Positions 3,221 to 57,451 of a DNA stretch of 64,000 nt are shown one piece after another. This DNA comes from Cephalothrix simula (taxonomy: Eukaryota > Nemertea > Palaeonemertea > Archinemertea > Cephalotrichidae). The notes beneath the pieces are model-generated. The model was not told the origin of the DNA and searched no databases. It saw only the letters and a list, made by a program, of their open reading frames with translations. A program made the position numbers and the translations under genes. Every line of letters begins with the position of its first letter. The stretch's first letter is position 1. The stretch spans positions 1 to 64,000 of the forward strand of contig JAXIUW010218062.1 of the NCBI GenBank assembly GCA_035591015.1, written 5' to 3'.

Positions 3221-4630
3221 CTAAAGCAGTTTTTCAGGCTTAATAGATTTAGCGCCTTCATGTTGGTTAAGAAGGTTTGCGATACGCTCAGCCAAAGTTT
3301 CTACTTGGGTTTGGGCATTGCCAACCTCGGTTTTAACTTGCTCTAAAATGGTGAGTATTTGTGCCTTAGATAACGGAAAATCAGGGTCTAGGGCTAAATT
3401 GTCAATCAGCTGAGTATCATCTGGAGACTGCATGTGTTGACGCAAGATGCGGTGGATGTCTTCACGATCAGAGCCTAGCTTTACGGCTTCCATCAGCAAG
3501 GCTGTAGAGGCTAAAAAGGGTAGATACTGCTCAACTTCTTTAACAAAGCGGTTATTGAAAATTTCCATTTCAGTAAACACGGTCAACATGGCCTCTAGCA
3601 AGCCATCATAGGCGGCACATAAGCCCGGCAGAGCTACTCTGCGCACCACAGAGCAAACTACATCACCCTCATTCCACTGATTACCACTAAGGCGCGATAG
3701 CATAGCATGATAGCCCTCTATTATGCAGTACAGCCCATTGATGCGCTCTGAACTACGAGCGTTCTTTTTATGAGGCATGGCCGAAGAGCCGGTTTGCTCC
3801 TTGCCAAAACCCTCATGCAATAGTCCAAGGCCGGTCATCAGCCGAATATCTACCGCAATGCTTGATATAGACGCCGCCAAACGACTAATCCGTGCAGCAA
3901 AGTCAGCATCAATGCTTCGGGGATAGATTTGTCCACTGGCCAGCAGAACATTCTTAAAGCCCAGCTCTTGGGCAATCAGCTGATCAAGTTGCTCGGCAAG
4001 CTCACCAGTGCCCAGCAAGCGACACTGATCACTTTGATGCCCTATAGCACCCTTGATGCCTCGCAAAGGGAGGTTAATCCGAAAATCATCGGCAGCCTGC
4101 CACGCCAGCAGCAGCTCTTCGGCATGCATTGCCCAGCGCCGACCCAAGGTGCTTGTTTGTGCGGGAACAAAATGCGTTCTCGCCACCACTATTAATGACT
4201 TATGACGCAACATCTTATCAGCTAAGGCATTGAGCACCGCCAATGATTTTAGACTTAGATAGTCCAACGATTGCCGCAGCAGCAATAAGTCTACATTGTC
4301 TGATATATCACGACTGGTCAGTCCTAGATGCAAACTGCTGGCATTGGCCAAGGCGTTAAACTCTTCAATTCTGGCCTTAATGTCATGACGATTAACGCTC
4401 TCACGCTGGCGGATACTATCTAGATCAACCTGTTGCTTAACCTGCTCGTAAGCCTCAATTACGGAATCGGTAATCGGTAAGCCTAGCTTTTGCTGGGCAC
4501 GTAAGACAGATAGCCACAGTTCACGCTCTTTGATGACCCGATTATGAGGACTCCACACCTCACGCATAACCGAGCTAGCATAGCGCTGAAAGAGCACGTC
4601 CGGAGCATTATTTGGTATAGAATTACTCAT
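3221..4630 (-). CDS. purB: Adenylosuccinate lyase
   Basis: This enzyme of the fumarase/aspartase superfamily splits adenylosuccinate and SAICAR in purine synthesis, releasing fumarate. The flexible-loop signature GSSAMPHKKN is clear. The N-terminal RYASSVMREVWS and the LTSRDISDNVD and QWNEGDV segments fit the roughly 470-residue PurB form typical of actinobacteria. The start chosen is the ATG at 4630, giving 469 residues beginning MSNSIPN; the open frame continues upstream into argG without homology. The start overlaps the argG stop by 8 bases (ATGAGTAA), which implies translational coupling. An argH identity was considered because of argG, but the motifs are PurB-like. Confidence 0.88.
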   Translation of the reverse strand: MSNSIPNNAPDVLFQRYASSVMREVWSPHNRVIKERELWLSVLRAQQKLGLPITDSVIEAYEQVKQQVDLDSIRQRESVNRHDIKARIEEFNALANASSLHLGLTSRDISDNVDLLLLRQSLDYLSLKSLAVLNALADKMLRHKSLIVVARTHFVPAQTSTLGRRWAMHAEELLLAWQAADDFRINLPLRGIKGAIGHQSDQCRLLGTGELAEQLDQLIAQELGFKNVLLASGQIYPRSIDADFAARISRLAASISSIAVDIRLMTGLGLLHEGFGKEQTGSSAMPHKKNARSSERINGLYCIIEGYHAMLSRLSGNQWNEGDVVCSVVRRVALPGLCAAYDGLLEAMLTVFTEMEIFNNRFVKEVEQYLPFLASTALLMEAVKLGSDREDIHRILRQHMQSPDDTQLIDNLALDPDFPLSKAQILTILEQVKTEVGNAQTQVETLAERIANLLNQHEGAKSIKPEKLL

Positions 4631-46704: not shown

Positions 46705-47517
46705 TCAAATATATTCAAGGCGTAATTGCTTCTTGATGACTAGTATATTGCCAGTTTCTAACCAAGGTTTAACAACATTAAGCCTAACCTTGCGCTGTGG
46801 CGGCTGAATGGTTAGTTGGTGATGAAAGTGCCCTAAAAAAAACTGATCAAAAGTCTGCGGAAGCATTTCAGCAAAGCGTTCTAGCGCATGATGAGGATAG
46901 TCGCCACGTTTGTACTGGTTGATATGAGCTAAGGACTGCTCAGTTTTATAGGCTACAAGGCCAACCAAGGCTTTAGGCAGTAGGTTAACCAGCTTACGAG
47001 CCTGAATTGTTCGAATAAGCCTAGTCCAGCGAATATGGTGCCGATCATAGGGGTTAATCAAGTCGCCATGGGCAAAACCCAGCACTTGCTCCGACCATTT
47101 GATGGTTAAAAACTCTTGGGTTATTAAGGCGTAGGGAAGGTCTTTATAGCCTGCTTCAGCACTGCCCGAAGGTATAAATAAATCACGATTACCAACAACT
47201 AATAGCGTTGTAATGCCCTTAGTTTGCAGCTGCTTGAAGGCATTTAAGACCAACTCAATGCTTGGTGTCCAAAACTTTTTGTTACCAAACCAGTATACAA
47301 ACAAATCACCAAGTACGATTAATAGACTATTCTGCTCTAGGCTTTGCAATTGCTGAACTAGCCGTTGATTATTGCCAATCGCTGCAGACTTTGATTGACT
47401 ATCTAAAACCCCAAGATGGCAATCAGCCAATACGTAAATGCGCTCAAAGGTTCTAGCATCAAACTCTGGAGCGTTGTTCAGGCGTTTATTTAGTTTTTCG
47501 TAAAAAGTTTTACTCAT
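46705..47517 (-). CDS. LpxH-like UDP-2,3-diacylglucosamine pyrophosphatase / metallophosphoesterase
   Basis: The 270-residue protein has calcineurin-like metal motifs in order: VLADCHLG, VLGDLFVYWFG, VVGNRDLF, FAHGD and LGHFHHQ. GNRD with the GDLF segment is characteristic of LpxH, which removes UMP from the lipid A precursor. Since lpxK is in the same window, LpxH is plausible. Substitutions around the lid region mean a different UDP-sugar substrate cannot be excluded. Confidence 0.75.
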   Translation of the reverse strand: MSKTFYEKLNKRLNNAPEFDARTFERIYVLADCHLGVLDSQSKSAAIGNNQRLVQQLQSLEQNSLLIVLGDLFVYWFGNKKFWTPSIELVLNAFKQLQTKGITTLLVVGNRDLFIPSGSAEAGYKDLPYALITQEFLTIKWSEQVLGFAHGDLINPYDRHHIRWTRLIRTIQARKLVNLLPKALVGLVAYKTEQSLAHINQYKRGDYPHHALERFAEMLPQTFDQFFLGHFHHQLTIQPPQRKVRLNVVKPWLETGNILVIKKQLRLEYI

Positions 47518-47747: not shown

Positions 47748-47777
47748 TTGACTGCGCAGAGCTTTCATTGCTATGCT
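47748..47777 (+). promoter_or_regulatory. Promoter of the cobalamin uptake operon
   Basis: TTGACT (47748-47753) and TATGCT (47772-47777) are spaced by 18 bases and lie directly upstream of the riboswitch, so transcription would start near 47784. Confidence 0.5.
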
Positions 47778-47787
47778 AGGCTACCAA

Positions 47788-47938
47788 AGTTTGGGGTGAC
47801 TAAACTTAATAGGGAAGGTGGTGCAAATCCACCGCAACCCCCGTTGCCGTGTTCGAGCAGAGGTTCTTCATCTAAGCCACTAGAGCGTTGTTCTGGGAAG
47901 GCGAAGATACCGTTTCGTTAGCCGGAAGACCTGCCCCA
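47788..47938 (+). promoter_or_regulatory. Cobalamin (B12) riboswitch
   Basis: The core is recognisable in order: GGGAAGGTGGTGCAAATCC with CACCGCAACCCCC, then AAGCCACT, CTGGGAAGG, and the B12 box GCCGGAAGACCTGCC (47921-47935). It ends about 30 bases before the first coding region. A CCCC at the end of the box could pair with the GGGG just before the start codon (47963-47966), giving a possible switch that hides the ribosome site when B12 is bound. Confidence 0.92.
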
Positions 47939-47967
47939 TACTTATTTAATCAACTTACCCACGGGGT

Positions 47968-50900
47968 GTGGTGCGGGTTGCGCAAGCTATCTTATTTATC
48001 ATCATATTCTTGCTGTCGGGCTGTCAGTCACCCGAAGAGCTCAGGGCGAACTTTGCCCAAGGGCTAATAGAGATTGACTTACCAATTGAGCAACGTTTTG
48101 AACGCATTGATCTTTATGATGCTTCATCACAGCAGCTGCTGATGCAGTCATGGGCTGCGCCTAGACTATCTTTTGCCTATAATTGGCAGCCTCGGCAACA
48201 GTTTTTAATTATCGCACAACCCAAAAACTTATTACTTAAAACCATAACGGCACCAGACGCTGTGGTTAGTGCGACTAGGCTTGAGTTTCCACTAGGATTA
48301 GAAGCCGTGAGCGATACCTACCTAATGCCAGCGAGCAGCACTTTTAACGCATTCTTGTTGTTAGATGCTCCAGAGCGGCAAAACTACTTAATAAAAGCAA
48401 TCGGGAGTGAATATGCCACCGCCAAACTTGAGGCCAATGCTCAACAAGAGCTTGAGGTAGCCGGCCAAACCAAAGTTTTACCCACCGCCATCGGCCTTAC
48501 CGAGCTTGAAGGCCGCCACGCCAAAGTCAGCTGGACAACTGATGCTCAGGGCAAAAATAACTACTCACTTAACCTTAAAACCGCTCGCAAAACAGAACTA
48601 GGGGTGGCTCTAGCCATTGTTGGGCATCATTTGCAGGTCGATGCCGATGGTCGGCTAGATATAACCAAGCCTCTGGAGCGCATCAACACTGCATCTGATG
48701 ATACCGCTAGGGCAGTCTCTACTTATATAAGAGTTGATGTGGCTAATCGTAGCCAATATGCTATCGCACTCACTGCTCAATCTACATTCAAGCAAAATGG
48801 CCAGCCTAGTCAGCAGTTTACTCTGCCCAACATCGATTTTATGCCCCTAAAGCAGCTACTCATTAGGCCAAACAGCCAAGCCTTTGTGCTGATCCCAGTC
48901 TATGCCCCAGCGTTGCCCCTTGACCATGCTCAGCATTGCCTAGAGCTTTATGTCGCCGAGCAGAGCTTGCATCAATCATGCTTATCTTTTTCTGTGCAAA
49001 GCCCTACCAATAGCTATTTGGCATTGATGATTGGGTTGGCGGCATTGCTTTATTTATTGTTCGCTCTATGGAAAATCGGCCGCAACATTAATCCGGAACC
49101 AGCTGTAAACGCTTCAAAAACCGCTACGGCTGCGGCCAAAAACTTTATAACCCGCAACTATAACTATACGGCAAGCAATTTATTTACAAAAAACAGCACG
49201 GCTCGCATTAGCTTAGCTGATTTAATTTTTACTAGCTACGTAGCTGGCTTGGCTGTGATTGGTTTGTCCATACCGGGAGTAATAGCCTCATGGCTTGGAT
49301 TATTAATCTTAGGACCATTTCAATTTTTATTCAGCGGACTATTTTTTAAGCTGGGCTTTTTTGCTCTAGCCGCAACTTTATTGCTTTTTGTAGGGCGTCG
49401 TGAAACTTTTTTACTATTCTATGTTACTTGGAGCGTAGCTCAGGCGTTTTTGCACGGACATTACTCGGTGTGGGTGGTAATTTATGCTGCTGTTACGCTC
49501 AGCCTAATGGATTTGGCCACGGGTATTATGCACCATACTTTGCGGAACACTCCTCAAAAAATTTGGCCAAGTAGCTCAAAGAATAGCTCAGAAGATAATC
49601 CAATAAATAGCTCACAAACTAATACTTACAGCAATGTACAAAGTAATGTGCAGCGCAATACGCAGCGTTCTGCATTAGCTAATGGCATATCCAGAAGAGG
49701 CCGTATTGCAGTAGCCCTAGCCATTGGTTGTGCTGAATACGGTAGCGTTTTTTGGGGACTATGGGTGGCTGAAGGCATTTGGGGCTTACACTACGCCGAT
49801 TGGTATATGCATCTGCAAGCTGCTGTAGCTTTTGTATATACGGCCTTGGGTACTTGGTTGGGGCTAGGTTGGGCAAGCCGATTACTACCGCTTAAAGCAT
49901 CGGCACCGCTGCCCCTAAGCCCTCATCCCAAGCCTATTGGTAATAGAAAGCCGCTCATCTATCAGGCTCGTGGCTTAGGCCATCATCTACCGCAACGGCA
50001 GTTGCTCTGCGGCATTGATATTAATGTTTATGCCGGACAGATTATAGTCATCAGCGGCAGTAATGGAGTGGGCAAAACAACGCTCATCAGTATTTTAGGC
50101 CGACTAATAGGAACTAATCAGGGCGGAGAAATCAGCATTGAGCGCAACTATATTCAAGACTGGAACGCTAATGTTGGGCTATTATTATCTAATACCCGTG
50201 ATCAGCTCTTGCAGCCCACGGGCAAAGGATTAATCAACGAGTGGCCAAACTTTGAAGACCCACAACTCAAGCTATTATGCCCGTCTGTCGTAGCCATACC
50301 GCAGGCGATGAGCGGTGGAGAGATGCAACGATTGGCTCTGTGTAGCATTTTTGCTAAGCGAGCACGCCTCCTATTCCTTGATGAACCCTTCACCCATCTT
50401 GATGCTACGGCAGCGGCCAACCTAATAAAACTGTTGCTTAAAGCTCGTCAAGCCGGCTCAGGTATCATCTTAACTGCAACTAGTGCAAATTTTCCGTGGG
50501 CTGATTCAATCCTGACCTTGCGTCATGGCCAACTTGTTAAGCAGCCTAAACAGCCGGGTCGGCCTCAATCCAAACCTGCTCTGCCTCCACAGGCCGTCAT
50601 TAAATCAGGTGAGCATCAACAGAGCTACACTTTAAGTTTGAGCAATCTACAAATACGCCGCAGCAAGAAGCTATTGTTTGAGGCACCGCAATTAAGCATT
50701 AAACATGGTCAAATCAGCTTAGTAGAGGCTGCAAATGGCTCTGGCAAAACCAGTCTCTTGCATAGTTTGGCGGGTATTTTGCCCCTGTATTGCGCTCAAA
50801 CTGTGCTTAACAAAAATAAAATATCGGCACGAACACTACGGAATCAAGTGGCCTTAATGCCTCAACCAGCAGGGATATTGCTCACTGAAGACAGCGTTTT

Positions 50901-51228
50901 TGAAGAGCTAAACTCAAACAAAGACTGGCTAAATGTTTTAGAATTAGAGCCAGAACAACCTCCGCAGCAACTTAGTAGCGCCCAGCAACAATGGTTAGCT
51001 TTAGCTATAGTCATCAACACACAACGCCCCTTTATATTGCTTGATGAGCCCTTTCGTGGCCTTGATGCACAGGGTTTGCAGCGCATGTTAAGTTTGTTAA
51101 AAGAGATACTGCAAAGCCAACCTTGGCGCAGCATATTGATGGTTGCGCCCCAGTTTCCGCAGGGCTTATCAAAAGATTTTTTTGATAGTCATTATCAAAT
51201 TTTCAACCATAAACTTGAGGCTATTTGA
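47968..51228 (+). CDS. Fused ECF-type transporter: lipoprotein/Ig-like domain, membrane domain, two ABC ATPases
   Basis: The 1086-residue protein begins with a lipoprotein-type signal (lipobox LLSGC). A beta-rich periplasmic region (residues about 25-350) follows, then a helix near 352-372. Residues about 415-520 and 575-645 carry several more membrane helices and could be the substrate-binding S component. Two ABC ATPase domains follow. The first has Walker A SGSNGVGKTT (about 700), signature MSGGEMQRL and Walker B LLFLDEPF. The second has EAANGSGKTS (about 923), a weakened signature LSSAQQQW and FILLDEPF. Both lack the usual H-loop His. The start is GTG 47968, with GTG 47971 also possible. 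The B12 riboswitch and the receptor downstream argue for cobalamin import. Confidence 0.78.
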   Translation: MVRVAQAILFIIIFLLSGCQSPEELRANFAQGLIEIDLPIEQRFERIDLYDASSQQLLMQSWAAPRLSFAYNWQPRQQFLIIAQPKNLLLKTITAPDAVVSATRLEFPLGLEAVSDTYLMPASSTFNAFLLLDAPERQNYLIKAIGSEYATAKLEANAQQELEVAGQTKVLPTAIGLTELEGRHAKVSWTTDAQGKNNYSLNLKTARKTELGVALAIVGHHLQVDADGRLDITKPLERINTASDDTARAVSTYIRVDVANRSQYAIALTAQSTFKQNGQPSQQFTLPNIDFMPLKQLLIRPNSQAFVLIPVYAPALPLDHAQHCLELYVAEQSLHQSCLSFSVQSPTNSYLALMIGLAALLYLLFALWKIGRNINPEPAVNASKTATAAAKNFITRNYNYTASNLFTKNSTARISLADLIFTSYVAGLAVIGLSIPGVIASWLGLLILGPFQFLFSGLFFKLGFFALAATLLLFVGRRETFLLFYVTWSVAQAFLHGHYSVWVVIYAAVTLSLMDLATGIMHHTLRNTPQKIWPSSSKNSSEDNPINSSQTNTYSNVQSNVQRNTQRSALANGISRRGRIAVALAIGCAEYGSVFWGLWVAEGIWGLHYADWYMHLQAAVAFVYTALGTWLGLGWASRLLPLKASAPLPLSPHPKPIGNRKPLIYQARGLGHHLPQRQLLCGIDINVYAGQIIVISGSNGVGKTTLISILGRLIGTNQGGEISIERNYIQDWNANVGLLLSNTRDQLLQPTGKGLINEWPNFEDPQLKLLCPSVVAIPQAMSGGEMQRLALCSIFAKRARLLFLDEPFTHLDATAAANLIKLLLKARQAGSGIILTATSANFPWADSILTLRHGQLVKQPKQPGRPQSKPALPPQAVIKSGEHQQSYTLSLSNLQIRRSKKLLFEAPQLSIKHGQISLVEAANGSGKTSLLHSLAGILPLYCAQTVLNKNKISARTLRNQVALMPQPAGILLTEDSVFEELNSNKDWLNVLELEPEQPPQQLSSAQQQWLALAIVINTQRPFILLDEPFRGLDAQGLQRMLSLLKEILQSQPWRSILMVAPQFPQGLSKDFFDSHYQIFNHKLEAI

Positions 51229-52013
51229 TGAAGCTATCGGCTAAAACCAGCCTGATTTTATTGTTTGAACTAGGCTTATTCTGCACCGTCATCAATAACA
51301 GTCTGTGGTTAGTGCTGTGCCTAGCATTATTGCTGCTATTCTGGCTCATAAATTGTAAGGCTCGGCATTGGCCAATAATTGTGGGTATGATGCTTGGCAT
51401 CAGCTGGTTTAATGCTATTGCGCAGGGTTTATTTTATGCTGAAGGCAATCTGACACCGCTAATTGTAGTAGTGCCTGCTGATTGGCTGCCACAGGGAATT
51501 ATTCTTTATGCAGAGGGCTTATGGTATGGATTACAGCAGTCATTGCGCTTTCAGGTACTGTGGTTAAGCAGCGTGCTCTTGATGCAGTCATATTCAATCA
51601 ATGCCCTTGCGCAAGCCTTGCGCAGCTTGCGCTTGCCCGCTATGCTGTGCTTTATGTTTACCCTATGTGTAGAGTTTTTGCCCAGTGCCTACGAGCAACT
51701 TAAAATCCATGCCTACGCTCGCCGCATGAAGCGATTAAGCCTGTGGAAAGGAATGCCTTCGGTATTGGCGCATAATTACTTTATAGCTCAACGCAAGGCC
51801 ATGGGCATCATGGCCAGCGGCATTGATTTGCAAGCGTTGTATCAGCCTCAATCGCAATCCAGTACGCCCACAGAAAAATCATTAATGCTTGGCGGTGCTT
51901 TACTGTTGCTATGCCTATACGGCGGAGCATTGCTAATATTTCTGCATCGCCACGGCATATTCTCAGCAACGCAATTAGAAGGGCTTTATCATTGGTTTAG
52001 CCTGTATTTATAA
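51225..52013 (+). CDS. EcfT-like transmembrane coupling protein
   Basis: The 262-residue protein has about five hydrophobic helices and the cytoplasmic coupling-helix region of ECF transporters. The motifs are modified: AYARRMKRL and ASGIDLQAL occupy the places of the two Ala-Arg-Gly motifs that dock on the ATPases. The start overlaps the fused ATPase gene by 4 bases (ATGA), which supports one complex. It would link the ATPases to the membrane domain. Confidence 0.78.
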   Translation: MMKLSAKTSLILLFELGLFCTVINNSLWLVLCLALLLLFWLINCKARHWPIIVGMMLGISWFNAIAQGLFYAEGNLTPLIVVVPADWLPQGIILYAEGLWYGLQQSLRFQVLWLSSVLLMQSYSINALAQALRSLRLPAMLCFMFTLCVEFLPSAYEQLKIHAYARRMKRLSLWKGMPSVLAHNYFIAQRKAMGIMASGIDLQALYQPQSQSSTPTEKSLMLGGALLLLCLYGGALLIFLHRHGIFSATQLEGLYHWFSLYL

Positions 52014-52017
52014 TCAT

Positions 52018-53487
52018 ATGAAAGAATATAGCAGCATTGGTATTATTGCGGCACTTTTAGTTGTAGCACTATTATTTTGGCCATCAACGGTAGCCATTAA
52101 TCCTTCTCCACCAGCCTTTGTACGTGGTGGATTAGTCTTTGCTAAACAACAAGATATTCCGCAATCCCTGCACAATCAAGCCCTAGATAATGTTCAATCT
52201 ATACCGCAAGGAGGCTGGTTTTATCCCCTAGAATGGCAGCCGGGTCAATCTTATGCTGAGCTTGGCAGAGCTCCTCAGCGGGGCATGCTTTGGCCGTGGC
52301 TGATTATTGAACCCGGTACTGGCGACATGGCTACTCTAGATTTTTCTACTGATGGTCAAATGCTAGCTGTGGGTGATCGGCAGGGCTTAATCAGAGTCTA
52401 TCGGCTGCATGATGGCCAATTACTATGGAGCAAGCATAGAGCTAATAGAGTAATTCGGCAGCTCGCATTTGGTGATGATAGCCAAATGCTTTATGTAGCT
52501 GAGCAGGGACCAGAAGGACGCATTGCCGCTTATGCAGCTTTGTCTGGAATAGAGAAATGGCACTTTGATAGTAGTCAAGACTTAGGCCGTTCGGAACGTA
52601 AAGCAGATTTGGGCTGGAGCAATCAACCCGGAGCTTATCGTCTATATCTTCATGAACAGGCTGTAATTGTTAGCTTTACTCATGCTCCATCGGGCAAGGC
52701 TCAAAGCCGTATTTATAGCTTAAATCAGACTGATGGCTGCCAGTTGTGGCGTTGGCCTCATAATCAAAATGCAAATTATAACATCAGCTGGTTCAGTGCT
52801 AATACATCACAAATCGCCTTTACGCTAGAGCCTCCACCTCAAGGCACAGAGACGCAATCGTGGTTGCACGTCATTGATGCTCACACCGCCGAAGATATTT
52901 ATGAATGGCCAATTCAGCCGACTGGAAACTGGCCAAGGGCGTCATTCTGGCAAAGTATCGCATTGGCTGACAAACACTTGGCAATTACTGCTCAGGATGG
53001 CCGAGCCTGGATTTTCAATCTTGATTATCAGCAACAATGGCAGTTTGAGCAATCACTAACAATTTATGAATCGCTACCGCCAATGCGCTTAATGGTTACC
53101 AATGGAACATTGCGCCGCACTGAAGGCGGGGCACTGTTTATAACTGGCATGACCTATAGATGGAATGCATTAGATGATGGCAGCCAGCATCCACTAGAAA
53201 ATACTGCCTTTGCCTATGATTGGCAGGGTAAAATGCGCTGGGTCTATAAGCTGGGCGGACACGTGCAAGGGGCTGAAGTTCGGCAAAATTGGCTCTGGAT
53301 CGGGGCTGGCATTAAGGAGCATGGGCGAGGAATACTAATTGACACTCGGCTTGGTAGCGAAGTTGCCCGCTTTGATCTAAAAGGTGCCACTAGTTATGGT
53401 GGAGTGGCTATGACCGATGATGCTCAATGGTTAGCCATTGCTGAATACAGCGCAGATGGCTGGTCACGTTTATGGATTTTGCGTTGA
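52018..53487 (+). CDS. Membrane-anchored beta-propeller (PQQ/WD40-like) protein in B12 locus
   Basis: The 489-residue protein has one N-terminal membrane segment (IGIIAALLVVALLFWP) and a large beta-rich periplasmic part. Repeats such as MATLDFSTDGQMLAVGDRQGLIRVY and MTDDAQWLAIAEYSADGW resemble WD40 or PQQ quinoprotein blades. It begins 5 bases after the EcfT-like gene, so it is part of the riboswitch-led operon. It may bind or deliver the cofactor in the periplasm, but that is inference. The last 18 bases overlap exbD on the other strand. Confidence 0.75.
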   Translation: MKEYSSIGIIAALLVVALLFWPSTVAINPSPPAFVRGGLVFAKQQDIPQSLHNQALDNVQSIPQGGWFYPLEWQPGQSYAELGRAPQRGMLWPWLIIEPGTGDMATLDFSTDGQMLAVGDRQGLIRVYRLHDGQLLWSKHRANRVIRQLAFGDDSQMLYVAEQGPEGRIAAYAALSGIEKWHFDSSQDLGRSERKADLGWSNQPGAYRLYLHEQAVIVSFTHAPSGKAQSRIYSLNQTDGCQLWRWPHNQNANYNISWFSANTSQIAFTLEPPPQGTETQSWLHVIDAHTAEDIYEWPIQPTGNWPRASFWQSIALADKHLAITAQDGRAWIFNLDYQQQWQFEQSLTIYESLPPMRLMVTNGTLRRTEGGALFITGMTYRWNALDDGSQHPLENTAFAYDWQGKMRWVYKLGGHVQGAEVRQNWLWIGAGIKEHGRGILIDTRLGSEVARFDLKGATSYGGVAMTDDAQWLAIAEYSADGWSRLWILR

Positions 53488-53865
53488 GGTGCTAGAGAAG
53501 CCCAAAACCACTGTTGCCGTAGTGTTATTTTTGATGCGTTGATACCAATTAAATAGAACGCCACTGGGTAGATTTTGATGCGGAATAAGGATTATTTCAG
53601 TTTGAGGTTGTTTTAGCACAAGGGCTAACTCATCCCAAAATAACCGCTGGCCGGCAACATCGGCTTGTTCAGCATCATAAAGCTCTATCTCTAGTGCTGT
53701 AGTTTGAACAGAATTAGTAGACGTTGCTAGCTCTATGGCATTAAAGTTAGTAAAACGTGCTGACAAGACAAGAAAAATGATTAGCAAAAACAAAACATCA
53801 ATCATTGCCACCAAAGAAAAGCCGCCGGCTTCTTGCAGTTGGTGGGGCTTAAATCTTCGTGGCAT
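53470..53865 (-). CDS. exbD: ExbD/TolR-family biopolymer transport protein
   Basis: The 131-residue protein has one N-terminal transmembrane helix with the functional Asp (MIDVLFLLIIFLVLSARF) and a small periplasmic domain. With ExbB it forms the proton-driven motor that energises TonB. It is encoded on the strand opposite to its neighbours and overlaps exbB by 17 bases and the propeller gene by 18. Confidence 0.85.
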   Translation of the reverse strand: MPRRFKPHQLQEAGGFSLVAMIDVLFLLIIFLVLSARFTNFNAIELATSTNSVQTTALEIELYDAEQADVAGQRLFWDELALVLKQPQTEIILIPHQNLPSGVLFNWYQRIKNNTTATVVLGFSSTSTQNP

Positions 53866-54442
53866 GTTCGTTAGTTGGCGAGTGGTCTTTGGTCAGCAGC
53901 AGATACAATCGGTCAGCACTGCTTTGCCAGCGTTTCTGCAAGCGTTGCAACATGTGTTGACTAATCAGCAGAGGAATAGCACCAATCAGGCCAACTTGAG
54001 TAGTATACAGAGCTTCAGCAATACCTTGGCTAAGCTCAAAGCTCGGATTGGACAGCTCAGAGAAAGTGCTAATCATTCCCGTTACCGTACCCAACAACCC
54101 CAGCATGGGCAACAATCCGCCCAACCAACCCAAAGAAGAAATGCGAGTGGCAATACGTGCCTCAAAATCAATCAGCAGCAGCTGCAAGTTATCATCATTC
54201 AGCGGTTTCTGCGCAAGAGCCAAGCTCAAAAACTGCCCCAACGGTGCCTTCCAGCGCATAGATTTTATTGCCCGAGTACAGTCAGCAATATTATTACAGT
54301 GATGGAGGCCACGGTCATAATAAATCCAAGCCAACCACAGCAACCATCGTTCAGCCGCAAAGGCCAAGCCCAGCACAGCCAGCCCCAGCAACCAAGGCAT
54401 CACTACGCCACCATTAAGCAATCTTTCCCAAAGGCTATCCAT
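53849..54442 (-). CDS. exbB: ExbB/TolQ-family motor protein
   Basis: The 197-residue protein has three predicted membrane helices. The MotA/TolQ/ExbB core is LLPMLGLLGTVTGMISTF followed by GIAEALYTTQVGLIGAIPLL. The start is taken as the ATG at 54442. A longer frame would begin with TTG at 54487, which is unlikely. The ATG falls in a CCATGG palindrome shared with the tonB start on the other strand. Confidence 0.85.
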   Translation of the reverse strand: MDSLWERLLNGGVVMPWLLGLAVLGLAFAAERWLLWLAWIYYDRGLHHCNNIADCTRAIKSMRWKAPLGQFLSLALAQKPLNDDNLQLLLIDFEARIATRISSLGWLGGLLPMLGLLGTVTGMISTFSELSNPSFELSQGIAEALYTTQVGLIGAIPLLISQHMLQRLQKRWQSSADRLYLLLTKDHSPTNEHATKI

Positions 54443-55517
54443 GGTTAATAAAGTTCGGCATAGTACAATGGTTAATAAAGTAATCAAATTGATTAAGTGG
54501 TCGGCTAGCCTAGCCCTAGCCTTGCTATATCTACACTATAGCATCTTTAGCACCCCGCCGACCAAGCCACGCCGCCAGCTAACCCTCGCCACATCTATCA
54601 GAAGCATTAACCGCTCGGAGCCGTCTTTGCTAGCTCCAGCAAATACCACTGAATCGGCCTTACCCAGCAATGAACAACAATCTATGCCCGATGTACCGCC
54701 GACTAGCATCATTGCTAACCGGCCTACGATTACCGCAGAAGAACAACCTAAAGAAGCTCTAACAACACCATCGCAGCCAATAGTTGCAACATTAAACACA
54801 GTCAAAGCTGATGTTAGCCAAGGCACTGCCTTAAATCATCTTTCAGTAAAAACACCGCTGACCAAGTCAGAGCCATCAGTATCGTCAAGTTCCGCACAAG
54901 GCAAGTCTTCAATACAAGGCAAGCCCCCAACCTATTCGCAGACTGGTCATCAAAATGCCTCTCAAAGTGATTCGCAGAGTGCCTCTAAAAGCCATTCTCA
55001 AAGTGATTCCAAAAGTGTTCCCCAAAGTGCCTCTCAAAATGATTCTCAAGATGATTCTTTAAGTCGCCCCACTGAAAACACAACCAATGCTTTGGTTAAT
55101 GATAGAAAAAACTTGACCGAGACAAAGCAACCCCTAAGTCTGCCTGAGCCTGCCTCGAGCAAGCAGCCATCGCCTCAATCAGCAGCCGTTACAACTACGC
55201 AGAGAACATCAGCAGCAGATGAACCACTGTATTATTCAACCGATAGCCTTGATGATGGCTTTAGATTGCTACAGCGAAATTCTTTACTCTACCCTCGGCA
55301 AGCGCAGCAACTACGCAAATCGGGGCAAGTAATCTTTGAGCTGCTGATTAATCAACATGGTGCAGTTAGCGAAGTGCTAATTATTGAGGCCACTGAAGGT
55401 TGGGGTTTTGTGGCGGCAATTAGGCAAGCCTATCAGCAAGCACTCTACAGTCCACCCACCCGCAACAATCAGCCTGTTAAAGTTAGGTTGCGCAAAGAAG
55501 TGGTCTTTAAGCCATGA
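54441..55517 (+). CDS. tonB: TonB-family energy transducer with Ser/Gln-rich linker
   Basis: The 358-residue protein has one N-terminal transmembrane helix (SASLALALLYLHYSIF). A long periplasmic linker is rich in Ser, Gln, Asp and Asn, with a 4-residue pattern (SQSD, SQSA, SKSH, SKSV) near residues 175-215. A C-terminal TonB domain follows (LYPRQAQQLRKSGQVIFELLI, then EVLIIEATEGWGFVAAI). An AAGG ribosome site lies 7 bases before the ATG. A second in-frame ATG at 54468 lies in a 14-base direct repeat of the first. The stop overlaps the receptor start. Confidence 0.88.
   Translation: MVNKVRHSTMVNKVIKLIKWSASLALALLYLHYSIFSTPPTKPRRQLTLATSIRSINRSEPSLLAPANTTESALPSNEQQSMPDVPPTSIIANRPTITAEEQPKEALTTPSQPIVATLNTVKADVSQGTALNHLSVKTPLTKSEPSVSSSSAQGKSSIQGKPPTYSQTGHQNASQSDSQSASKSHSQSDSKSVPQSASQNDSQDDSLSRPTENTTNALVNDRKNLTETKQPLSLPEPASSKQPSPQSAAVTTTQRTSAADEPLYYSTDSLDDGFRLLQRNSLLYPRQAQQLRKSGQVIFELLINQHGAVSEVLIIEATEGWGFVAAIRQAYQQALYSPPTRNNQPVKVRLRKEVVFKP
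54976..55073 (+). repeat. 12-bp coding tandem repeat in the TonB linker
   Basis: A 12-base unit (four codons) repeats about eight times with changes and encodes the Ser-x-Ser/Asp-x pattern of the linker. Copy-number change would alter linker length without shifting frame. Confidence 0.6.
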
Positions 55518-57451
55518 TTAGATGGCTTTGCTTAGTGCTTTTGCTGCACCTGCCAACAACGCTTTTGGCTGATGAGATTGACGAAATAGAACTAGATGAC
55601 GCAGTAGAGTTGGTCTATGCTCGCTCGGCATCTAGCTATTCAGCCGGCAATGAATGGAATATTGCCGTAGACCCTGTTCTTGATAGCGGAAAAACTTTGG
55701 GGCAGTTATTAGCTGAAATCCCCGGCCTAGAAGTTAGCCACGGCGGTGATAGCCTCGCTCGCTCTACGGTAAGAATTAGAGGCGGTGATGAACATCAGGT
55801 TTTATTTATTATTGACGGCGTACAGATGAATAATGGTGAAGCCAGCCAACCTTCACAAAGTAGCGGCATAGCCTTTGATTTAAGCTCAATCGCTGTTGAC
55901 CAAATTGATACCATTAAAGTTATTCGCAGCGATAAAAGTGCTGAATACGGCTCTGAGGCTAGCTCTGGAGTAGTAATTATCACTACCAAACGCCCCACAG
56001 AAAATAAGTTTGAGTTCAATCAGATAGCTTCTTCCAACTTGTTGAAAATTGCGCTTGGCTATTCTTTCGTTCAGCCCCAACTTACCCTGCAATTAAGCTA
56101 CGCCAAAAGTGATGGCAATTATGTTATTCCAGACCCCTTTAATCAAAATTTTGCCGATATCTCTGGTGCTGACAGCATTGCTCGGTGTATACCTAAATAC
56201 AGTGATGGCTATCGTCTAAAACGGTGCAATTCTAGTGATTTAATATCGTTCAACCTCAAGCTGCAATCAGATATTCAGCAACTTTCAATGCAGGTTCAGC
56301 AAGGTCGGCGTTGGGGCTTAGGCGGAATTAACTCTGTGCAACCCTATGGTGTAGTGCGCTGGTTGCAGCTGGGCTTCGGCTATATGCTAAACCATGCTAT
56401 TGGCGACCATACTCTTGAACTAAGCACTGAATACAGCATCAAAAATAGCTATCGCAATGAAAACACACAGCTTAACCAAGATTCATTAATTAGTACACAG
56501 CAAAGCGCACGCGGAGCATTCGGCGTTGATTACTGGTTTTGGCTACTAGATGCACACAAGTTTAGCCTTGGCATAGATTTAGAAAACCTCAGTATCAGCA
56601 GTAAGTATGTTGCTGAAACCCGCCGCCAAATAGCCTTAAAAAGTGGCTACAGCTTTGCCTCTACGGGCTGGCTGGCTTCTGTAAATATTTACCAAAGTTT
56701 TTTGCAGCACATTGATCCCCCGCTTGCCTACAGCCTAGAGGCCGGCTATGCCCTAGATTGGGTGGGCGTTAAACTCAGTCATACTAAGGGTTATCGCTTA
56801 CCATCATTGCATGAACTTTATGGCACTAACACAGATTATGCCCCTTCAATGGCTAATCCCAATTTGCAGCCAGAACACTCACTAGGGGTTGATCTGGGGC
56901 TATTCATTGATATTGACAACCGCTTACATGCTGAAATAAATTACTTTTATAACTGGGTCAACAATAAAATAATCGCTTTGCCCGAGGGCAATAACTATTC
57001 TTTCTACAAACTCAAGAATATTTATAAAACCATCTCTAGTGGTTGGGAGCTAGCCCTGCGCCTTAATATAACTCAGCATGTTCTTTGGCGAATTTCCTTT
57101 ACCGACAATAAGGCCATCATTGACCAGTACGAGGCTCAAGACCCGCGTTATAATGGTCGCCGTCTGCCAGATCGAGCTCGTTATCAGCTAAATTCAGCAC
57201 TTAAACTGCGCTATGGCTTTTTTTCTTCAGAAATCAATGCTCGCTACAAAAGTTTGCGGTTTTTAGATTTATCTAATTATAAGCATCTCAAGCCCTATGT
57301 AGCTGTTGATTTAAGCCTAAATTACCATCCTGCAGAGCAATTCTCGCTAGGCTTACACATTAATAATGTCGGCAATACCGTTTATTCAGAACAAGACAAT
57401 TACCCTGCACCGGGGCGTGAGGTATTATTTAAGCTACGGATAGAAATCTAA
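55514..57451 (+). CDS. TonB-dependent outer-membrane receptor, probably for cobalamin
   Basis: The 645-residue protein has a signal peptide (LCLVLLLHLPTTLLA). A TonB-box-like stretch (DDAVELVYARS) and a plug domain follow (LGQLLAEIPGLEVSHGG, VRIRGGDEHQVLFIIDGVQ, GVVIITTKR). The beta-barrel ends with YPAPGREVLFKLRIEI, as in BtuB/vitamin receptors. The length is close to that of BtuB. It overlaps tonB by 4 bases and lies downstream of the B12 riboswitch-led operon, which supports cobalamin as substrate. Confidence 0.85.
   Translation: MIRWLCLVLLLHLPTTLLADEIDEIELDDAVELVYARSASSYSAGNEWNIAVDPVLDSGKTLGQLLAEIPGLEVSHGGDSLARSTVRIRGGDEHQVLFIIDGVQMNNGEASQPSQSSGIAFDLSSIAVDQIDTIKVIRSDKSAEYGSEASSGVVIITTKRPTENKFEFNQIASSNLLKIALGYSFVQPQLTLQLSYAKSDGNYVIPDPFNQNFADISGADSIARCIPKYSDGYRLKRCNSSDLISFNLKLQSDIQQLSMQVQQGRRWGLGGINSVQPYGVVRWLQLGFGYMLNHAIGDHTLELSTEYSIKNSYRNENTQLNQDSLISTQQSARGAFGVDYWFWLLDAHKFSLGIDLENLSISSKYVAETRRQIALKSGYSFASTGWLASVNIYQSFLQHIDPPLAYSLEAGYALDWVGVKLSHTKGYRLPSLHELYGTNTDYAPSMANPNLQPEHSLGVDLGLFIDIDNRLHAEINYFYNWVNNKIIALPEGNNYSFYKLKNIYKTISSGWELALRLNITQHVLWRISFTDNKAIIDQYEAQDPRYNGRRLPDRARYQLNSALKLRYGFFSSEINARYKSLRFLDLSNYKHLKPYVAVDLSLNYHPAEQFSLGLHINNVGNTVYSEQDNYPAPGREVLFKLRIEI

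Follow-up and report, generated by a model that had tools for sequence, protein, structure and literature searches.

A candidate corrinoid import island joining a TonB-dependent receptor to a fused energy-coupling factor-type transporter behind a cobalamin riboswitch

We describe an island of seven genes, headed by a cobalamin riboswitch, in a 64,000-nucleotide stretch of DNA deposited under Cephalothrix simula (GCA_035591015.1, contig JAXIUW010218062.1; the whole stretch is called the window below). With a probability of roughly two in three, the island imports corrinoid (vitamin B12) into a diderm bacterium by a route comprising a TonB-dependent receptor with its TonB-ExbBD motor, capture in the periplasm, an energy-coupling factor (ECF)-type transporter in the inner membrane and shut-off by the riboswitch. 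This reading draws on the riboswitch, the ECF components with a predicted S-component fold, the lack of a detectable BtuF and of a convincing BtuC in the assembly, and the kinship of the receptor with riboswitch-preceded receptors of plasmids. The initial annotation had inferred a single cobalamin pathway next to a riboswitch; its observations are confirmed in part and its interpretation as one pathway is partly supported, but a single operon is not.

The window lies within a contig of 125,678 bases (C409), in an assembly of 580 contigs and 8.6 Mb. Searches of this assembly, which may be incomplete, scored the best candidates only, so the absences reported from it are provisional. The features of the island, with bit scores set against model cut-offs, are the following.

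47777..47952, plus strand: cobalamin riboswitch aptamer RF00174, full length (model positions 1-189), 95.6 bits, cut-off 31.5
47961..47966, plus strand: ACGGGG, resembling a ribosome-binding site (putative role), a six-pair complement by script of riboswitch loop L5 (about 47839-47844)
47968..51228, plus strand: fused protein of 1086 amino acids with a lipoprotein-like signal, an ectodomain, an S-component-like domain and the ATP-binding cassette (ABC) domains A and A' (open frame, PF00005 twice, relatives of the same layout)
48022..49005, plus strand: ectodomain (residues 19-346), modelled with low confidence as largely beta-stranded
49180..49926, plus strand: predicted six-helix S-component-like domain, residues 405-653 (AlphaFold2 model, mean per-residue confidence (pLDDT) 78.1, predicted template-modelling score (pTM) 0.73)
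49948..50571, plus strand: first ABC domain A, residues 661-868, PF00005, H-loop His and Q-loop Gln missing
50623..51225, plus strand: second ABC domain A', residues 886-1086, H-loop His and first Walker A Gly missing, signature altered
51228..52013, plus strand: EcfT/CbiQ-like protein (ATG; TTG 51225 in the mechanical frame), PF02361 at 38.7 bits, cut-off 25
52018..53487, plus strand: propeller-like protein with a hydrophobic N-terminus (residues 1-30), PQQ_2 at 30.4 bits, cut-off 27.6, and WD40-type matches
53470..53865, minus strand: ExbD-like protein, PF02472 at 32.6 bits, cut-off 25.4
53849..54487, minus strand: ExbB-like protein (TTG 54487 or ATG 54442), PF01618 at 71 bits, cut-off 22.9
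54441..55517, plus strand: TonB-like protein (ATG 54441 or 54468), PF03544 TonB_C at 41.2 bits, cut-off 24.6
55514..57451, plus strand: BtuB-like TonB-dependent receptor, PF00593 at 112.2 bits, cut-off 27, and PF07715 at 54.2 bits

The riboswitch and the arrangement of the genes

The cobalamin riboswitch proposed earlier is borne out as a full RF00174 aptamer scoring well above the curated gathering cut-off, and it is the sole match to this family found in the assembly. The ACGGGG stretch stands just 5' of two candidate GTG starts of the fused gene, at 47968 and 47971. Pairing of L5 with a stretch near the start is the usual layout for a block of translation when the ligand is bound; plain folding also yields a competing hairpin across the start, and the exact switch is thus not settled. 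Patterns of promoters and terminators turned up no more often than in shuffled sequence.

Behind the riboswitch, the fused gene, ecfT and the propeller gene follow one another on the plus strand with gaps of fewer than five bases (stop codon of the fused gene at 51226-51228, ATG of ecfT at 51228, start of the propeller gene at 52018). The exbD and exbB genes are encoded on the minus strand, with exbD nearest the propeller gene, and tonB and the receptor gene return to the plus strand, beginning at the start of exbB. Overlaps amount to 17 bases between exbD and exbB, 18 bases between exbD and the end of the propeller gene, and four bases between tonB and the receptor gene. The list of genes given in the initial annotation is therefore correct, but they do not form one run: because exbD and exbB lie on the other strand, a single riboswitch-driven operon was rejected. 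The riboswitch directly precedes only the fused gene, ecfT and the propeller gene; no second riboswitch was found between exbB and tonB, where the start positions leave no room for one. An open frame of 237 amino acids on the plus strand (53735-54448) runs antisense to exbB and exbD and is probably spurious, since the Pfam matches sit on the opposite strand.

A fused ECF-type protein with altered ATPase motifs

Among the parts of an ECF transporter, the island has an EcfT/CbiQ component, for which the assembly yielded no second CbiQ match, a predicted S-component fold and two ABC domains. In the fused protein, PF00005 (105.9 bits) matches in two stretches. Sequence alone did not identify the membrane domain: the seven members of its alignment gave no Pfam match except one at an expectation value (E) of 4.7, and a sequence search of the PDB gave none up to E 10. 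Structure prediction supports an ECF S-component-like domain. The full-length model was weak (pLDDT 58.7) and the ABC domains dominated its fold matches, for which reason the membrane domain was modelled alone; the nine best VIA-align matches of that model are all ECF S-components of the vitamin type. BtuM, CbrT and CbiM are not among the matches listed, which excludes nothing. The AXXXA motif in helix 1 of S-components has been linked to docking onto EcfT (PMC11109136). At this position, read by eye, all seven aligned sequences carry [AS]xxxG, with S-Y-V-A-G in the window, and the alignment holds no invariant Cys. The earlier proposal of a fused ECF-like transporter with an adjoining EcfT thus holds, the S fold being a modelled one, and the inner-membrane part is of the ECF type by composition and descent, though not a proven ATPase.

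The protein searches for close relatives detect only sequences that share exact words; in them, residues 1-660 of the fused protein found none among 7,997 scored candidates. The ectodomain gave no Pfam match that counts (one at E 0.4), and none of its profile matches in the PDB lies below E 0.58. A profile of the S alignment returned 113 stretches from genome contigs and 74 from viral contigs, none of which was confirmed, and plasmids held no match to EcfT or to the S-domain; a MutL search of the genome contigs gave four archaeal loci. The propeller protein clears the PQQ_2 cut-off narrowly. No close relative emerged for it, the matches being one over 11% of its length and one plasmid record with 23% identity over 57%; it has no evident lipobox, and no BtuG entry appeared among its PDB sequence matches.

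The catalytic motifs of the ABC domains weigh against an ATP-driven importer, as the fused protein does not present the complete set. In an alignment with six relatives, the H-loop His is lost from both domains, A lacks the Q-loop Gln, A' lacks the first Walker A Gly, and the signature of A' reads LSSAQQQ where the relatives have LSRGERQ, LSRGQRQ or LSAGERR. The lost residues are kept in all six relatives, and the H-loop His is present, by reading, in a further two ABC proteins from the assembly. Because of these losses, the motifs make ATP hydrolysis by the window's copy doubtful. Walker A and the signature of A, both Walker B motifs with their Glu, and the Q-loop of A' are intact.

These losses suit an alternative in which the outer-membrane half imports a corrinoid and the fused protein is no longer driven by ATP, its S-domain serving as a facilitator, or the system is in decay; a precedent is BtuM, which transports B12 with no ECF module (PMC6072759). 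We regard this as unlikely, since the frame remains open over 1086 codons, EcfT is present, the riboswitch is intact, and the motifs listed above as preserved include both Walker B motifs. Cobalt import by the ECF part in the manner of CbiMNQO, with the receptor system as a neighbour doing another job, is quite improbable: cobalamin riboswitches also govern cobalt transporters, one standing upstream of cbi genes (PMC13119186), and the T protein matches CbiQ, but in Pfam scans neither the fused protein nor the S-domain set matched the CbiM family, the matched S-components are of the vitamin type, and a TonB-dependent receptor and an ectodomain fit a large ligand.

The receptor and its motor

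The TonB-ExbB-ExbD set is complete, with all three proteins above their Pfam cut-offs. The assembly yielded three MotA_ExbB matches including that of the island, and no other TonB-dependent receptor; for the latter reason the motor appears dedicated to this receptor, as had been claimed. The TonB-like protein and QueG (described below) both have low-complexity segments in which Ser, Gln, Asp and Lys abound, perhaps a habit of this genome.

We call the receptor BtuB-like rather than BtuB because it scores 98.9 bits against the NCBIfam model TIGR01779, far below the cut-off of 599.7. Compared with E. coli BtuB, the plug is 34% identical over 100 residues and the barrel match is weak (E 0.002). 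The receptor matched 94 plasmid records, of which 12 were listed and 10 fetched (L016-L025). A cobalamin riboswitch lies upstream of the matched receptor gene in seven of these ten (L016-L022) and in none of the other three (L023-L025). In four records (L016, L019, L020 and L022), the receptor gene is followed by genes for a substrate-binding protein, a permease and an ATPase, which is the BtuFCD layout, and in L021, a plasmid of Trichlorobacter (Geobacter) lovleyi, by those for an ExbB-type protein and CobN. Two tandem cobalamin riboswitches precede the receptor gene of the latter plasmid (L021:2517-2983). A control search that started from the L025 receptor gave 1,720 records, from which eight were chosen and fetched; a riboswitch stood upstream in one (L029). 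That riboswitch lies at 3990-4185, and its receptor, which groups in the tree with the riboswitch-preceded ones of L016 and L017, probably serves B12 uptake; the record itself carries no annotation.

When 18 receptors were compared with phmmer, the five closest to the window's receptor were all riboswitch-preceded, and several siderophore-type receptors scored above E. coli BtuB, which came 13th. A tree of 19 receptors joins six siderophore-type members with support of 99/98 and leaves the window's receptor outside them; its own position, on a long branch, is not resolved. The BtuB-like character put forward earlier accordingly stands as kinship with riboswitch-preceded plasmid receptors but not as membership of the BtuB model.

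A receptor for heme or a siderophore, with the island consisting of two unrelated uptake systems side by side, would agree with the separate transcription units, with the rank of E. coli BtuB, with a score of 104.9 bits to a heme/transferrin subfamily model against 98.9 for the B12 model, and with the preference for CirA (44.2 bits) over BtuB (37.7 bits) among solved structures. We hold this to be as improbable as cobalt import, given that the nearest plasmid receptors are mostly riboswitch-preceded, that six siderophore-type receptors group without it, and that no importer with a Peripla_BP_2 protein was found in the assembly.

A proposed import route

In the route that we favor, the TonB-dependent receptor would admit a corrinoid through the outer membrane with energy from the TonB, ExbB and ExbD of the island. 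Once in the periplasm, the ligand may be held or passed on by the propeller and by the ectodomain of the fused protein. The inner membrane would be crossed via the ECF-type transporter, with the S-component and both ATPase domains in one polypeptide and EcfT as a separate protein. When corrinoid is plentiful, the riboswitch would stop translation of the fused gene through contact of L5 with the ribosome-binding site. We infer the ligand, the hand-over roles, the use of ATP by the window's copy and the direction of regulation, as well as the action of all parts on cobalamin.

Genomic setting and other B12 genes

The island is flanked on the left by a metallophosphoesterase gene and on the right by a phosphopantetheinyl transferase gene, itself followed by mutL.

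46705-47517, minus strand: metallophosphoesterase gene
57542 and 58314: phosphopantetheinyl transferase gene and then mutL

The tetranucleotide profile of the island correlates at 0.89 with that of the rest of the window, whose own 10 kb pieces give 0.86-0.96. Stretches of contigs C1, C11, C175 and C326 correlate with the window at 0.87-0.96, and for this reason probably belong to the same organism. A single 16S ribosomal RNA was found in the assembly (C326:102218-103733, L009). Among the matches listed, it shares about 80% identity with plasmid-borne 16S of alphaproteobacteria and 82.5%, over 84% of its length, with that of E. coli, which places the organism at a distance from both; two plasmid records were counted in the 90-95% identity band. 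By eye, the gene has a look that we take to be deltaproteobacterial or myxococcal.

Corrinoid use can be considered apart from the island. QueG is present (288.9 bits, cut-off 200; L010:979-2355, contig C1), as is a PduO-type cobalamin adenosyltransferase (160 bits, cut-off 108.45; L013:4186-4740, contig C11), and on these grounds the organism probably uses a corrinoid, at least by QueG. No match to PF02310, NrdJ or methylmalonyl-CoA mutase was found in the assembly, and a user of adenosylcobalamin was thus not found.

The initial annotation had reported no homologue of BtuC, BtuD or BtuF. For the first and last this extends from the island to the assembly: Peripla_BP_2, the family of BtuF, was not found, and the lone FecCD match (27.7 bits, cut-off 26.5) belongs to a gene that adjoins one for an ABC ATPase. 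ZnuB is the best-scoring model for this gene (203.9 bits, short of the cut-off of 284), which is not a convincing BtuC. BtuD was not searched separately, as ABC ATPases are not separable in that way.

Relation to known systems and implications

The inner-membrane step, usually that of BtuCDF, would fall to an unusual fused protein of the ECF type, which is most familiar from Gram-positive bacteria. By analogy, the island would work like BtuB plus ECF-CbrT, the cobalamin ECF transporter of Lactobacillus delbrueckii (PMC5997447). Both have an S-component, EcfT and two ATPases, cobalamin transport being demonstrated for CbrT and supposed for the island. As described, the Gram-positive transporter consists of separate subunits, whereas the island joins S, A and A' in one chain and adds a lipoprotein-like ectodomain, adjoining TonB parts and altered ATPase motifs. 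With the route through BtuB and BtuCDF, the island shares a BtuB-like receptor, TonB energy and a cobalamin riboswitch; it differs in that ECF parts take the place of BtuF and of a convincing BtuC, neither of which was detected in the island or the assembly.

BtuM is described as a solitary B12 transporter of Gram-negatives with the S-component fold and a Cys as cobalt ligand (PMC6072759). In both cases an S-component-like fold would stand in for BtuCDF beside a BtuB-like receptor, but BtuM works with its Cys and without an ECF module, whereas the island has EcfT and ABC domains and no invariant Cys, so that it is not a BtuM. Identity with CbiMNQO likewise finds no basis in the Pfam scans, which gave no CbiM. 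A cluster of receptor, ExbB and CobN has been described for Geobacter lovleyi (PMC3403914). Its counterpart in L021 resembles the island in a riboswitch-preceded receptor adjoining an ExbB-type motor, and differs in that no ECF S-A-A' protein or propeller is annotated within the 9.7 kb read. BtuG, a surface lipoprotein propeller of Bacteroides (PMC10404256, PMC6143338), is similarly encoded together with a BtuB-type receptor, whereas the propeller of the island has a hydrophobic N-terminus and no evident lipobox. A more specific scheme is speculative and rather unlikely to hold as a whole. It would replace BtuCDF by a one-chain S-A-A' ECF protein that brings a periplasmic capture domain of its own, make the propeller a periplasmic B12 carrier in BtuF's stead, parallel to BtuG, and have the window's copy, with both H-loops lost, move corrinoid with little or no ATP hydrolysis.

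An older survey reported BtuFCD homologues in more than 90% of organisms that take up B12 and lack the synthesis pathway (PMC2667541). Many B12-dependent Gram-negatives are nevertheless stated to have BtuB without BtuCDF, and the membrane proteins for B12 uptake are said to await identification in most prokaryotes (PMC6072759). Among the titles and opening lines of abstracts consulted, which mostly left subscription papers outside their scope, we recognized no fused S-A-A' ECF protein with a TonB-dependent B12 system, and we do not claim that none is in print.

The island is a candidate substitute for BtuCDF that is built differently from BtuM and linked to cobalamin through its riboswitch, and since the other parts that span the envelope adjoin it, this candidate can be tested in a laboratory strain. 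Release of the S-component has been proposed for known ECF transporters (PMC12075633), and a single chain that permanently holds the S-component together with the two ATPases would probe how far such release is needed.

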